Made by a program: the position numbers and the translations under genes. From Aurantimonas sp. Leaf443 (GTDB taxonomy: Bacteria > Pseudomonadota > Alphaproteobacteria > Rhizobiales > Rhizobiaceae), in NCBI RefSeq assembly GCF_001425575.1, contig NZ_LMRD01000001.1, forward strand, positions 64,537 to 128,536: a stretch of DNA of 64,000 bases, read 5' to 3'. Within the stretch, counting starts at the first letter, position 1. Every line of letters begins with the position of its first letter. This document shows, one piece after another, positions 4,969 to 14,496 of the stretch. The notes below the pieces were generated by a model. That model was given only the letters and a program-made list of their open reading frames with translations, was not told the DNA's origin and did not search any database.

Positions 4969-5045
<77 letters not shown>

Positions 5046-5448: not shown

Positions 5449-7143
5449 CTAGAACAGCGAGCCCTGGCCGGGCGCGATGGCCTTGGCGCGGGCGGCGCGG
5501 CGGCGGATGGGGGCGGCGGGCAGGGTCCGGTCGCCGGGCACGCTGCCGAGCGGGGCGTCGCCGTCGGTCGCCACCGCCTCGCGGCGCTGCGTGCGCGTGG
5601 CGGGGTCGTCGTCCGGGCGCCAGTCGGGATTGGCGAACTCCACCTGGAATCGCGTGCCGGGGCCGAGCGCGTCGGCGCGGGTGATCGGCGTGCGGCCGTC
5701 CTCGGCATAGACGATGGCATAGCCGCGTTCGAGCACCTTGCGCGGATCGAGCGTGCCGGCGATGCGCCAGAGACCGCCGAGCGTCTCGCGCCGGCGCTCG
5801 GCGGCGCGCCGCTCCAGCGTCTGGAGGCCCGCGCCGAGCGCGTCGAGGCGCAGGCGCGCGGCCTCGCTGCGGGCGCGGATGATGTGGGGCTGCAGGCCGC
5901 TCGCCGCCTCGTCGTAGCCCCGGCGCAGGCGATGCAGGATGCTGCCGATGCCGCGGGCGGCATCGCTCTCCTGCTGGCGCAGACGCGCGCGGCGCTCGCG
6001 CAGCGCCCCGTCGAGAATGCCCGGCGACAGGCGGCCGGCGCTTTCCGCCAGATGCCGGCGCCGGTCGGACAGCGCCAGCGACAGGCCGCGCGTCAGCCCG
6101 CTCTCGGCCTCGTCGAGGCGTCGGCGCGGCAGGGCGAGCAGCATGTCGGGCGCCGGCAGGGCGCGCGCGGTCGCGGCGAGCGCGCGCGCCTCGCGATCGA
6201 GCCGGCGCGTGACGGCCCCGCCGAGCCGGGCCTCGAGGCCGGCAAGCACGGCCTTCAGTTCGGCCCGCACCGGCACCACGATCTCGGCGGCGCCCGTCGG
6301 CGTCGGCGCGCGCCGGTCGGCGGCATGGTCGAGAAGCGTCCAGTCCGTCTCGTGGCCGACGGCCGAGACGAGCGGGATCGCCGAGGCGGCGGCCGCGCGC
6401 ACCAGCGTCTCGTCGTTGAAGCCCCAGAGATCCTCCAGGCTCCCGCCGCCGCGCGCCACGATGAGGACGTCCGGCCGCGGCACCGGGCCGCCGGGTTCGA
6501 TGGCGTTGAAGCCCTCGATCGCCGCCGTCACCTCCGCCGCGCTCGTCTCGCCCTGCACGCGCACGGGCCAGACGAGGACATGCAGCGGGAAACGGTCGGC
6601 GACGCGGTGCAGGATGTCGCGGATCACGGCGCCGGTCGGCGAGGTGACGACGCCGACCACGTTCGGCAGGTAGGGCAGCGGGCGCTTGCGCGCGGCGGCG
6701 AAGAGGCCTTCGGCCTCGAGTCTCGCCTTGCGCTCGTTGAGGAGCGCCATCAGCGCGCCGGCGCCCGCCGGCTCCAGCGTCTCGATGACGATCTGGTATT
6801 TCGACGAGCCGGGATAGGTCGTGAGCTTGCCCGTCGCGATCACCTCCAGCCCCTCCTCGGGGCGGAAGGGCAGGGCGGCGAAGGCGGTGCGCCAGACGAC
6901 GGCGTCGATGCGCGCCTTGTCGTCCTTCAGGCAGAAATAGGCGTGGCCGGAGGAATGCGGCCCGCGATAGCCCGAGACCTCGCCCCGCACGCGCACATGG
7001 CCGAACTGGTCCTCGATCGTGCGCTTGAGCTTGTTGGAGAGGTCGGAGACCGACAGTTCCAGGACATTGGGCACGCCGCCCTGCGGGACGGCGGCGGCGG
7101 TGCGGGCCGAGAGCGGCGTGCGTCCCCCCCTCGCGCTCACCAT
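5449..7143 (-). CDS. xseA: Exodeoxyribonuclease VII large subunit
   Basis: 564 residues. XseA forms exonuclease VII with several XseB subunits and degrades single-stranded DNA. An N-terminal OB fold (LELSVSDLSNKLK through GEVSGYRG and HAYFCLKDD) precedes the catalytic region with VGVVTSPTGAVIRDI, DVLIVARGGGSLEDL and VSAVGHETD, then a long helical segment and the C-terminal RKVLERGYAIV motif. The last 80 residues form a basic extension. The ATG at 7143 overlaps the end of the LysR gene by 7 bp, implying one transcript. The start could lie slightly downstream, because the first 25 residues are poorly conserved in character. No xseB lies nearby. Confidence 0.93.
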   Translation of the reverse strand: MVSARGGRTPLSARTAAAVPQGGVPNVLELSVSDLSNKLKRTIEDQFGHVRVRGEVSGYRGPHSSGHAYFCLKDDKARIDAVVWRTAFAALPFRPEEGLEVIATGKLTTYPGSSKYQIVIETLEPAGAGALMALLNERKARLEAEGLFAAARKRPLPYLPNVVGVVTSPTGAVIRDILHRVADRFPLHVLVWPVRVQGETSAAEVTAAIEGFNAIEPGGPVPRPDVLIVARGGGSLEDLWGFNDETLVRAAAASAIPLVSAVGHETDWTLLDHAADRRAPTPTGAAEIVVPVRAELKAVLAGLEARLGGAVTRRLDREARALAATARALPAPDMLLALPRRRLDEAESGLTRGLSLALSDRRRHLAESAGRLSPGILDGALRERRARLRQQESDAARGIGSILHRLRRGYDEAASGLQPHIIRARSEAARLRLDALGAGLQTLERRAAERRRETLGGLWRIAGTLDPRKVLERGYAIVYAEDGRTPITRADALGPGTRFQVEFANPDWRPDDDPATRTQRREAVATDGDAPLGSVPGDRTLPAAPIRRRAARAKAIAPGQGSLF

Positions 7144-8093
7144 CCGGCGGCCACCATGCCCGGGCGATGGCGCTGCGAGCGGATGATGCGCGTCTCCGGC
7201 ACCTGGCTGGGCTTGGCCTGCGTCTCCACCGGGGCGAGATTGGCGAGGCTCGCGCGGATATGCTCGACGAGGGCGTCGACCGCGGGCGCATCGGCGGTGC
7301 GCGCCCGCATCACGCCGATCTCGGTCTCCTTGAGGGTCGGGAAGCCCTCGTGTTCGCCGAGGATGCGCATGCCCGGCCGCAGCGCGCATTCGGCGAGCAC
7401 GCTGACGGCCAGGCCCGACAGGACCGCCGAGGTGATGATCTGCGCCGACCAGGAGGTGAAGAGCACCTTGTAGCGCCGCCCGATCGCGTCGAGCGCCTGA
7501 CAGCCCTCCACGCGCCACGCGCAGTCGAGGCGCCCCACCGCCAGCGGCAGGATCTCGGCGCGGTGCACGTCGTGCGAAGCGGAGGTGACGAAATGCAGAG
7601 GCTCGCGCCGCACGATCTCCACGCCGTTGAAGTTGCGGTGGCAGTCGGTGACGAGCGCGACGTCGAGCCGGCCCTTCTCGACATGCTCCACGAGATGGCT
7701 CGTCGGCTCGCAGGCGATCTGCAGCTCGACCAGAGGGTTGGAGCGGGAGAAGCGCGCCAGGATCTCCGGCAGGAAGCGCTCGGCATAGTCGTCCGGCAGG
7801 CCGATGCGCACATGGCCCTGGACGGCCTCGTCGTCGAAGGCGAGCAGCGCCTCGTGGCTGAGCGTCAGGAGGCGCCGCGCATAGGTGAGGAGCCGCGCGC
7901 CCCCCTCCGTCAGCCGCACGGCGCGGCCGTTGCGCTCGAACAGGGAGAGGCCGAGCCGCTCCTCAAGCCGGCGCATCTGCATGGAGACGGCCGACTGCGT
8001 CTTGAAGACGTCCTCGGCGGCGCGGGTGAAGCTGCCGCTGTCGACGATGGCGACGAAGGTGCGGAGCTGGTCGAGATCGAGCGGAGAGGCCAT
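7137..8093 (-). CDS. LysR-family transcriptional regulator, LrhA-like
   Basis: 318 residues. The N-terminal winged HTH (LDQLRTFVAIVDSGSFTRAA, then TQSAVSMQMRRLEERLG) is the LrhA/HdfR type. The effector-binding region follows from about 90 to 295 (HVRIGLPDDYAERFLPEIL). A Pro/Gln/Arg tail of about 25 residues ends the protein. It is divergent from the DUF1127 gene across a 194-bp gap holding a perfect CCAAC-N4-GTTGG palindrome 38 bp from its own start, so autoregulation and control of the DUF1127 transcript are likely. Such LysR/DUF1127 pairs occur in other alphaproteobacteria. The effector is unknown. Confidence 0.92.
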   Translation of the reverse strand: MASPLDLDQLRTFVAIVDSGSFTRAAEDVFKTQSAVSMQMRRLEERLGLSLFERNGRAVRLTEGGARLLTYARRLLTLSHEALLAFDDEAVQGHVRIGLPDDYAERFLPEILARFSRSNPLVELQIACEPTSHLVEHVEKGRLDVALVTDCHRNFNGVEIVRREPLHFVTSASHDVHRAEILPLAVGRLDCAWRVEGCQALDAIGRRYKVLFTSWSAQIITSAVLSGLAVSVLAECALRPGMRILGEHEGFPTLKETEIGVMRARTADAPAVDALVEHIRASLANLAPVETQAKPSQVPETRIIRSQRHRPGMVAAGW

Positions 8094-8130: not shown

Positions 8131-8144
8131 CCAACATTCGTTGG
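8131..8144. promoter_or_regulatory. LysR-type operator palindrome
   Basis: A perfect inverted repeat CCAAC-ATTC-GTTGG sits in an AT-richer patch between the divergent LysR and DUF1127 genes. Flanking TGA...TCA bases extend the symmetry imperfectly. Size and position fit a LysR recognition site controlling both directions. Binding is inferred. Confidence 0.55.
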
Positions 8145-8149
8145 CGTCA

Positions 8150-8247
8150 TCAATCGCGCCGGCCTACCTTCCTCCCTGTCAGGAAGACCTCGGGAGCCCA
8201 CCAGCCCCGCCCGCACAGCATGCGGGCGGGAACGGGCTCCCCTTTTT
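8150..8247 (+). ncRNA. Candidate small RNA or attenuated leader upstream of DUF1127
   Basis: Two stem-loops lie in the leader of the DUF1127 gene. The first is CTTCCT-CCCTGTC-AGGAAG (8168-8186), with a pyrimidine-rich anti-Shine-Dalgarno-like loop. The second is a long bipartite stem: GGGAGCCC (8192-8199) pairs with GGGCTCCC (8234-8241) around the inner stem CCCGCCCGCA-CAGCA-TGCGGGCGGG (8206-8230), followed by C and five T (8243-8247). This is a textbook intrinsic terminator, placed 40 bp before a start codon instead of after a gene. A terminated small RNA of roughly 80-100 nt, or an attenuator, would explain it. The 5' end is not known. Confidence 0.5.
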
Positions 8248-8287
8248 CCCGAGGACCAGAAGTGGCTGTTTGAAAGGAAACTAGGCC

Positions 8288-8554
8288 ATGACGATCGTTG
8301 CGAGACCCACCAGAACCACCCGGTTCCTGCCTCTCACCCTGCGCCCGGCCATCGCCGCCCTGCGCGCGATCGTGAAAGCCCTGATCAATCGCCGCGCCGC
8401 CATGCGCGTGTCGGAGATGCCGGACCGCATGCTGAAGGATATCGGCCTGCGGCGCGACGACATCCACGACGCCCTGCATGCCGACTGGCGCGACGATCCG
8501 ACCTTCCGCCTGGCGATCGCCGCCGCCCGCGCGCGCCACCGCATGGAGCCGTGA
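8288..8554 (+). CDS. DUF1127 small basic protein
   Basis: 88 residues. The C-terminal half carries the DUF1127 pattern: RVSEMPDRMLKDIGLRRDDI, then an Arg-rich end. DUF1127 proteins are small, basic, widespread in alphaproteobacteria and often stress-induced; some affect RNA turnover. The first 30 residues (Arg/Thr/Leu-rich) are an extension before the domain. AGGA lies about ten bases before the ATG. A candidate small RNA with its own terminator lies directly upstream, a linkage known for C-rich-loop small RNAs and DUF1127 genes in Rhodobacter. Function here is unknown beyond the family. Confidence 0.85.
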   Translation: MTIVARPTRTTRFLPLTLRPAIAALRAIVKALINRRAAMRVSEMPDRMLKDIGLRRDDIHDALHADWRDDPTFRLAIAAARARHRMEP

Positions 8555-8586: not shown

Positions 8587-8621
8587 GAAGACGCCCGGCG
8601 CCCCACGCGCCGGGCGTCTTC
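8587..8621. terminator. Bidirectional hairpin between convergent genes
   Basis: A perfect 15-bp stem (8587-8601 with 8607-8621) around CCCAC lies between the convergent DUF1127 gene and the CNNM/CBS gene. There is no strong T tract, but the position and stability fit a shared terminator. Confidence 0.6.
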
Positions 8622-8630
8622 GCTTGGAGG

Positions 8631-9950
8631 TCAGCCGGCCGAGGCGTCGCCGCCCTCGGTATGGCCGAGGAGTTCGTTGGTCATCAGGATCTTGTCGATC
8701 CGGTGCCCGTCGAGGTCGATGACCTCGATCGTCCAGCCGCTCCAGGCGACCGATTCGCCCGCCTCGGGAATGTGGCCCATCCGGTCGAGCACGAAGCCCG
8801 CCACCGTTTCGTAGTCGCGCTTGCGCGGGAAGGAGACGCCGGGAACCTTCTCCTCCAGCTGGTCGATCGGCATGGCGGCGTCGACGAGCCAGGAGCCGTC
8901 GTTGCGCTGGATCGCGGTGAGATCGTCCTCGTTGCCCTCGGGGAGGGAGCCGGCGATGGCGATGAGGATGTCGGTCGGCGTGGCGACGCCCTCGAAGGAA
9001 CCGTACTCGTCGAGAACGATCGCCATGTGGATCGAGCCGGTGCGGAAGCGCTCCAGGAGCTTCAGGATCGGCATCGTCTCGTGCACGTAGAGCGGCTCGC
9101 GCATGGCGCCCTTGAGATCGATCGTGCCGGTGTGGCGCTGCTGCTCGAGAAGGTCCTTGGTCTGCACGATGCCGACGACCTCGTCGGTCTCTGTGTCGAT
9201 GACGGGGTAGCGCGAATGGGCCGTCGCCTGGATCTCGTCGAGGAGCGTCGAGGCGTCGTCCTTCATGTCGAGCCAGATCGTGTCGGGGCGCGGCACCATG
9301 ATGGAGCGCACGGTGCGGTCGGCGATGCGGATCACCCCTTCCAGCATCTCGCGTTCCTTTGGCTTGAAGACGCCGGTCTGCGTGCCCTCGGCGATCATCG
9401 CCTTGACGTCCTCCTCCGTCACGCCGTCGTCGCGCTCGCCCCCGCCGCCCAGGAGCGCGGCGACGCCGTCCGTCGAGATGCGCAGCAGCCAGACGATCGG
9501 CGCGCCGATCTTGGCGATCACCGTCATGATCGGCGCGACCTTGGCGGCGATCGCCTCGGCCCGGTTGAGGGCGAAGCGCTTGGGGACGAGTTCGCCCAGG
9601 ATGAGCGAGAGATAGGTGATGATGACGACGACGATCACGAAGGCGACCGTCTCGGCATAGGGGCCGACGACGGGCCAGTCGGCCATGGCCGCGCCGAGCG
9701 GCGCGGCGAAGACCGAGCCGCCATAGGCGCCGGCGAAGATGCCGACCAGCGTGATGCCGACCTGCACGGTGGAGAGGAACTCGGTCGGGTCCTCCATCAG
9801 CTTCAGCGCGCGGCCGGCGCCGCGGCTTCCGTCCTTGCGCATCTGCTCCAGCCGAGAGCGCCGGGCCGAGACGAGCGCCAGCTCGCTCATGGCGAAGAAG
9901 CCGTTGAGGAGGATGAGGAAGAGGACGATGGCGACGTTTGTCAGAAGCAC
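8631..9950 (-). CDS. CNNM/CBS-domain membrane protein (hemolysin C / CorC family)
   Basis: 439 residues. The N-terminal CNNM region (about 1-185) has hydrophobic helices and the typical motifs NGFFAMSELALVSARR and LILGELVPKRFAL. Two CBS domains follow (about 210-330), beginning with the R-x-IMVPR motif (RSIMVPRPD) and continuing through HMAIVLDEYGSFEGV. A C-terminal CorC_HlyC domain ends the protein. Relatives are linked to magnesium or cobalt efflux or resistance; the older hemolysin name does not mean cell lysis. The start is a GTG without a clear Shine-Dalgarno sequence. The 283 bp beyond its start hold its promoter and nothing else I can recognise. Confidence 0.9.
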   Translation of the reverse strand: MLLTNVAIVLFLILLNGFFAMSELALVSARRSRLEQMRKDGSRGAGRALKLMEDPTEFLSTVQVGITLVGIFAGAYGGSVFAAPLGAAMADWPVVGPYAETVAFVIVVVIITYLSLILGELVPKRFALNRAEAIAAKVAPIMTVIAKIGAPIVWLLRISTDGVAALLGGGGERDDGVTEEDVKAMIAEGTQTGVFKPKEREMLEGVIRIADRTVRSIMVPRPDTIWLDMKDDASTLLDEIQATAHSRYPVIDTETDEVVGIVQTKDLLEQQRHTGTIDLKGAMREPLYVHETMPILKLLERFRTGSIHMAIVLDEYGSFEGVATPTDILIAIAGSLPEGNEDDLTAIQRNDGSWLVDAAMPIDQLEEKVPGVSFPRKRDYETVAGFVLDRMGHIPEAGESVAWSGWTIEVIDLDGHRIDKILMTNELLGHTEGGDASAG

Positions 9951-13698: not shown

Positions 13699-14496
13699 AT
13701 GGATCTCCTCATCCGCGACCGCGTCGCGATCGTCACGGGCGCCACCGGCGGCATGGGCTTCGCCACCGCGCGGCTTCTCGCCGAGGAGGGCGCAAGGCTC
13801 GTCCTGACCGACCGGACGGTGGACCAGCTGACGGCGGACGCGCGCGAACTTCCCGCCGAGACCCATGTCGTCGCCGCCGACATGCTGCATCAGGCACAGG
13901 TCGACCGGGTGGTGGAGGAGGCCGTCTCGCGCTTCGGCAAGCTCGACATCGTCGTCCACACATGCGGGATCACCGGCGCCAAGGGCGACCCGATCGCCAT
14001 GAGCGACGACGACTATCGGGAGGCCTACGAGACCGACTTCCTCTCGGCCGTGCGCATGGCCCGCGCGGCGCTGCCGCAGATGAGGAAGGGCGGCTGGGGC
14101 CGCTTCGTCTGCGTCACGTCCGAGAACGCCGTCCAGCCCTATTGGGAGGAGGCGACCTACAACACGGCCAAGGCCGCGCTTGCCGCCTTCATGAAGGGCC
14201 TCTCCTACCGCTCGGCCGAGGACGGCATCCTCGTCAACACCGTGGCGCCCGCCTTCATCGCCACCGGCATGACCGACGGGATGATGCGCGAGCGCGCCAG
14301 GGAGCGCGGCACGTCCTTCGAGGAGGCGATCGAGAGCTTCCTGGAGGAGGAGCGTCCGGGCATCTCGCTGAAGCGGCGGGGCCGGGCGGAGGAGGTGGCC
14401 GCGGCCATCGCGCTCCTGTGCTCGGAGCGCGCCTCCTTCATCAACGGCACGAATCTTCGCGTCGACGGGGGCTCGGTCCTGTCGGTCCAGAGCTGA
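13699..14496 (+). CDS. Short-chain dehydrogenase/reductase
   Basis: 265 residues, classical SDR length. The Rossmann nucleotide motif is TGATGGMG (13-20). The catalytic set is Ser141, Tyr154 and Lys158 in YNTAK. An Asp at the end of strand 2 (Asp38) suggests NAD(H). The conserved NNAG motif is replaced by HTCG (87-90), an unusual feature that removes the usual structural Asn. The C-terminus has the standard [12 protein letters not shown]. Substrate cannot be told. AAGGA lies eight bases before the ATG. The gene stands alone between rsmE (divergent) and a small convergent gene. Confidence 0.9.

Follow-up and report, generated by a model that had tools for sequence, protein, structure and literature searches.

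A Predicted LysR-Controlled Leader Carrying an Intrinsic Terminator Precedes a DUF1127 Gene in Aurantimonadaceae

The locus lies within a 64-kb stretch of DNA, which as a whole is referred to as the window, and consists of a gene for a LysR-type regulator and a gene for a DUF1127 protein that diverge from one another with 194 bp between their starts (Table 1). The top NCBIfam match of the regulator is LrhA, with a score that falls under the LrhA cut-off, and its gene is flanked by an exonuclease-VII-like open reading frame (assigned by eye) on one side and the DUF1127 gene on the other. DUF1127 proteins are small, widespread, and poorly understood, and they have been linked to stress, to phosphate metabolism, and to the processing of small RNAs. 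The genome has four DUF1127 genes; the one studied here is paired with LysR, and this pairing is kept across Rhizobiaceae s.l. The LysR protein is 67–78% identical to the LysR of Aurantimonas, Fulvimarina, Mangrovicella, and Antarcticirhabdus, and ∼57–64% identical to that of other relatives. It falls in one clade with the Aurantimonadaceae LysR with support of 100/100, and the genome is Aurantimonadaceae-like in its sequence kinship. On the far side of the DUF1127 gene, a perfect hairpin (GAAGACGCCCGGCG/CGCCGGGCGTCTTC, 8587–8621) separates it from a convergent CNNM/CBS/CorC gene (8631–9950) and is probably a terminator shared by the two; elsewhere in the window, a tRNA-His (GTG) gene is found at 4969–5045.

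Table 1. Positions of the genes and of the promoter and leader elements at the locus
Feature	Positions	Strand	Basis
LysR-type regulator	7137–8093	-	PF00126/PF03466; divergent from DUF1127
LysR operator (predicted), AACATTCGTTGGCGTCATCAAT	8133–8154	+	Near-invariant in relatives; half TTGGCGTCATCAA (8141–8153) and dyad AAC-N4-GTT
Likely -35, TTGGCG	8141–8146	+	18-bp spacer to -10; TTGG conserved in relatives
-10 element (predicted), TACCTT	8165–8170	+	TANNNT in Aurantimonadaceae
GTCAGGAA, predicted transcription start and 5' strand of P1	8178–8185	+	8/8 columns invariant in 22 leaders
Predicted terminator hairpin P2, 8 + 10 bp, CAGCA loop (8216–8220)	8192–8241	+	Fold, covariation
Predicted terminator U-tract, TTTTT, one C after the hairpin	8243–8247	+	T-run conserved in 23/24 relatives
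P1 3' strand, UUCCCGAG	8246–8253	+	Pairs with 8178–8185
Start-codon hairpin P3 (GTGGCT/GGCCAT)	8262–8289	+	Start codon in 3' arm; Shine-Dalgarno (8272–8280) in loop
DUF1127 protein, 88 aa	8288–8554	+	PF06568, E 5e-9

The initial annotation had placed a LysR palindrome at a likely promoter, and the comparison bears this out. Across 164 loci, a near-invariant block, AACATTCGTTNGNNTNATCAAT, is seen at 8133–8154, which includes both the -35-like TTGG and a T-N11-A half of the kind that is typical of LysR sites. A conserved T-N11-A box therefore stands beside the -35 in the region that the divergent genes share, the arrangement of a LysR-regulated divergent promoter. The box occurs once in the 64-kb window and 0 times in shuffles, and the operator is present in 282 of the 396 family genomes, usually as one site per genome, while a reversed-pattern control gave 0 in all rows read. 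Because the operator is near-invariant, usually single within a genome, and found in so many genomes of the family, the predicted control of the DUF1127 promoter by LysR is well supported, and the neighboring LysR probably switches the gene on. The downstream promoter elements are conserved as well. T11 and A12 of the -10 are invariant in the 22 Aurantimonadaceae leaders and T16 is nearly so; in the 123 sequences from outside this group, the A at the second position is kept in 121 and the T at the sixth in 83. This conservation beyond Aurantimonadaceae identifies TACCTT as the predicted -10 of the DUF1127 promoter. Since GTCAGGAA is invariant and begins 7 bp after the -10, transcription most likely starts at ∼8178.

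Downstream of this predicted start lies a bipartite hairpin, P2, in which an outer stem (GGGAGCCC, 8192–8199, with GGGCTCCC, 8234–8241) encloses an inner one (CCCGCCCGCA, 8206–8215, with TGCGGGCGGG, 8221–8230) for a total of 18 bp. The fold of 8160–8248 reaches -45.7 kcal/mol (z -4.5), and none of 200 shuffles is as good. A pattern scanner for promoters and terminators, run on the window sequence, found nothing at the locus; it allows loops of 3–8 only, which is the probable reason that it missed the bipartite hairpin. In statistics that ignore kinship among the relatives, P2 arms taken from the same species fit one another better than arms exchanged between species (0/2000 permutations do as well) and the covariation score of the three drawn helices is reached by 0/500 shuffles. 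In the alignment, which is imperfect, both partners vary at six of the eight outer P2 pairs. A terminator-like hairpin is seen in all 19 testable Aurantimonadaceae leaders versus 29 of 103 leaders from outside, most of these 29 with weak T runs; in two relatives, L010 and L021, the U-tract is weak or lost. We find, then, a GC-rich hairpin that runs directly into a U-tract and is itself conserved, with compensatory changes, and the two elements are predicted to be an intrinsic terminator. The hairpin and T tract reported in the initial annotation as standing before the DUF1127 gene are thus present, fold far better than shuffled sequence, and covary in Aurantimonadaceae.

The position of a terminator 5' of a gene could also mean that it closes another unit and that DUF1127 has a promoter of its own 3' of it. 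Only 40 bp separate the terminator from the DUF1127 start at 8288, however, and they are occupied by P1, P3, and the Shine-Dalgarno sequence; the Aurantimonadaceae leader alignment has no -10-like conservation in this interval, and the sole conserved promoter stands 5' of the terminator. We regard a separate unit as very improbable. With no room and no conserved promoter between terminator and gene, DUF1127 would be expressed by readthrough.

The initial annotation had additionally drawn a first stem from CTTCCT (8168–8173) and AGGAAG (8181–8186), with a pyrimidine-rich loop, and had read it as the mark of a stress small RNA of the CcsR/cuckoo family in reversed order to DUF1127. The stem can be drawn, and CTTCCTCCC does lie close to a DUF1127 gene. 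Its 5' arm, however, overlaps the -10 at 8168–8170, and the predicted start falls between the arms, so that AGGAAG lies 3' of the start and the "C-rich loop" is the spacer from -10 to start, 5' of ∼8178. The stem shows no covariation on the alignment, where the observed values are reached by 75/500 and 487/500 shuffles, and it pairs in 64% of alignment cells, which is the same as or below shuffled partners. The pyrimidine "loop" is substituted in relatives, for example by TATGGTGATCAA. Because it overlaps the -10, spans the start site, and pairs no better than shuffled, we reject the first stem as an RNA feature; of the two stems in the initial annotation, only the terminator stem shows compensatory changes.

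In known CcsR/cuckoo RNAs, hairpins whose loops carry CCUCCUCCC are cotranscribed downstream of the short DUF1127 gene ccaF1, and at the CIN1 locus the hairpins and ccaF1 form one transcript from an RpoH promoter (PMC10253847); the same motif is also given in PMC3927594. Here, as there, a structured RNA adjoins a DUF1127 gene, but the RNA is 5' of a longer DUF1127, lacks the C-rich motif, and follows a LysR box with a LysR-linked -35/-10. The motif CCUCCUCCC is absent from the DUF1127 leader locus, which has UUCCUCCC; in the 64-kb window, CCTCCTCCC is matched once, at 14144 of the minus strand. A genuine CIN1-like cuckoo locus is present elsewhere in the same genome (G000 C11:168578-169018 and C12:149573-150182; L184, L185). 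On C11, a different gene encodes a ∼46-aa DUF1127, and behind it tandem hairpins with CCTCCTCCC loops run to the end of the contig, the 3' arrangement expected of a cuckoo transcript (C11:168584-169004); further hairpins of this type occur at the end of C12. With ∼12 motif copies over the two contig ends, the cuckoo array seems to be long and to have been split by a break in the assembly. Given that the real array adjoins another DUF1127 gene, and that the pyrimidine stretch at our locus is promoter spacer, we give a reversed cuckoo-type RNA here practically no credence.

Beyond P2, two helices that were overlooked in the initial annotation are supported by the alignment. P1 joins the 5' end of the leader, GUCAGGAA, to UUCCNGAC, which lies where the U-tract ends and beyond it, so that the whole leader closes into a single rod. 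Of the 7 P1 pairs, at least 6 form in 22 of 24 leaders, with a peak at the true register (zero slide), and 6/7 form in the window. The GUC (GTC) part is fully paired in 17/24 leaders, against a mean of 3.9 and a maximum of 11 in 5000 shuffles. This evidence is one-sided because the 5' strand of P1 hardly varies, and its near-invariance could partly reflect a constraint on the initially transcribed region. In P3, 92% of alignment cells are paired and two-sided changes occur at 2 of 6 pairs, as in L005, where TGGC/GCCA becomes TGAC/GTCA. Against dinucleotide shuffles, the Aurantimonadaceae leaders as a whole have a mean z of -3.1 and a 5' end that is paired at 0.73 versus 0.54 in shuffled sequence; for leaders of other genera, z is -1.3 and the 5' end is paired at 0.50 versus 0.50. 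Separately, the Mesorhizobium-type leaders L006, L041, L123, and L124 open with a small hairpin, centered on CACATG-AGG-CATGTG, at the predicted start site, and 5'-terminal hairpins may recur in the DUF1127 leader through different sequences.

A 5'-terminal stem-loop can act as a stabilizer, of which ompA is an example, and the main role of the rod might be to protect DUF1127 mRNA against degradation, with few transcripts terminated in vivo. Most leaders have P1 pairing at or beside the predicted start nucleotide, which would suit such a role, and in L021, which has lost its U-tract, the fold retains the GUC.GGAA/UUCC.GAC pairing. A stabilizer alone would have no need of the U-tract that all but one of the 24 leaders keep, though, and we consider this explanation unlikely. 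As in ompA-type stabilizers, a stem would seal the 5' end of the mRNA; the leader differs from them in combining that stem with an intrinsic terminator, and stabilization here is a proposal.

The leader appears confined to a narrow lineage. In its own genome, the leader model gives one strong match, which argues that there are no trans copies. The covariance-model search of alphaproteobacterial genomes, for which model R1 was run on 397 genomes of the order, returned strong matches only in the same genome and in one Aurantimonas-like genome, with 12 further matches at 19–25 bits. A 29-nt insert specific to its lineage was cut from L019 before this leader entered alignment A1; the alignment omits L010 and L021, both of which the model still matches (E 1.6e-10 and E 1.4e-5, respectively). 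An Rfam search at gathering and lax E-value thresholds yielded just a tRNA and sub-threshold chance matches, with none for the leader. No conserved uORF is seen in the Aurantimonadaceae leaders, and in the window leader no start codon follows the Shine-Dalgarno-like AGGAA. The sole ATG of the leader (8220) sits in the P2 hairpin and is missing in several aligned relatives. An in-frame upstream start at ATGGCT was also considered and rejected by eye, as its frame relative to the start codon shifts between species and some species have GTGGCT or CGGCT. Among other Rhizobiaceae, the leaders L149, L154, L156, and L158 have hairpins followed by T-rich stretches, such as CACGGGTGTGGGATGACATACCCGTGCCTTTTC, which are possibly independent attenuators.

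These results bear on whether the terminated RNA of ∼70 nt acts in trans as a small RNA, with DUF1127 expressed by readthrough, which is the initial annotation without its C-rich loop. Termination so near the start, at a complete terminator, would yield a discrete RNA, and the Sinorhizobium DUF1127 leader appears as an induced, uORF-containing sRNA (PMC12218461). Against this, the terminated RNA is nearly all paired and lacks a long conserved single strand, the P2 inner stem and loops diverge among relatives, the genome has no second copy and the leader no Rfam match, and leaders outside Aurantimonadaceae are dissimilar. An RNA with so little unpaired sequence, present once per genome and in a limited lineage, is less likely to act in trans, and we view such a role as doubtful. 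What persists of the earlier proposal is the LysR operator and promoter, a short transcript predicted to end near 8247, and the readthrough into DUF1127; its assignment to the C-rich-loop, CcsR/cuckoo kind of small RNA does not.

We therefore favor, with some reservation, a structured cis leader that is controlled by LysR, partly terminated, and limiting for DUF1127. LysR bound at 8133–8154 would set initiation at ∼8178. The first ∼65 nt would fold into the bipartite terminator hairpin, many transcripts, probably most, would end near 8247, and the remainder would read through into DUF1127. In the readthrough RNA, P1 would seal the 5' end of the mRNA, while P3 would keep the start codon in a hairpin with the Shine-Dalgarno sequence in its loop. 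The leader would thus act in cis as a brake on both transcription and translation, and as a stabilizer of the mRNA that escapes. A gap of only 14 nt between predicted start and hairpin leaves no place for a classical antiterminator upstream of the hairpin, and the leader comparison revealed no signal for controlled readthrough. The absence of a conserved uORF as well leaves no evident switch signal, and the brake may either be fixed or depend on a protein that acts on the leader. One candidate, which we rate as a long shot, is the DUF1127 protein itself, which is related to the RNA-binding CcaF1 and might bind its own rod-like leader and so adjust either termination or the opening of the start codon, while initiation is set by LysR. 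If true, the leader would be an autoregulated RNA element that the rest of the family lacks.

Two other systems invite comparison. S. meliloti duf1127_1 is subject to leader attenuation through a 279-nt leader with a translated 29-aa uORF that has C-rich codons; there, Rho is the presumed factor, an intrinsic terminator having been ruled out (PMC12218461). In both cases, the DUF1127 gene follows a leader with a premature transcription stop, which here is predicted. Our ∼110-nt leader, however, has a strong intrinsic terminator and no conserved uORF, translated or with C-rich early codons, and the S. meliloti duf1127_1 leader sequence had no match among the genomes searched. The two may be comparable in role and alike in outcome, but not in mechanism. 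In Brucella, the LysR-type VtlR controls AbcR2 and three DUF1127 genes; it adjoins thioredoxin reductase (trxB), and its reported motif is CAATGCAGCCATGCA (PMC12595884). A LysR-type regulator is tied to DUF1127 genes in both organisms, but here the regulator is divergent from DUF1127 rather than beside trxB, and the conserved box is a different one (AACATTCGTTGG..ATCAAT), which sets it apart from the VtlR/LsrB regulon.

A conserved LysR operator with one target, together with a terminating leader specific to one lineage, would suggest that different relatives restrain their DUF1127 genes at the leader by differing devices, a uORF and probably Rho in Sinorhizobium and an intrinsic terminator in Aurantimonadaceae. 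The defined operator and RNA would also offer a handle for finding the signal to which the LysR regulator responds.
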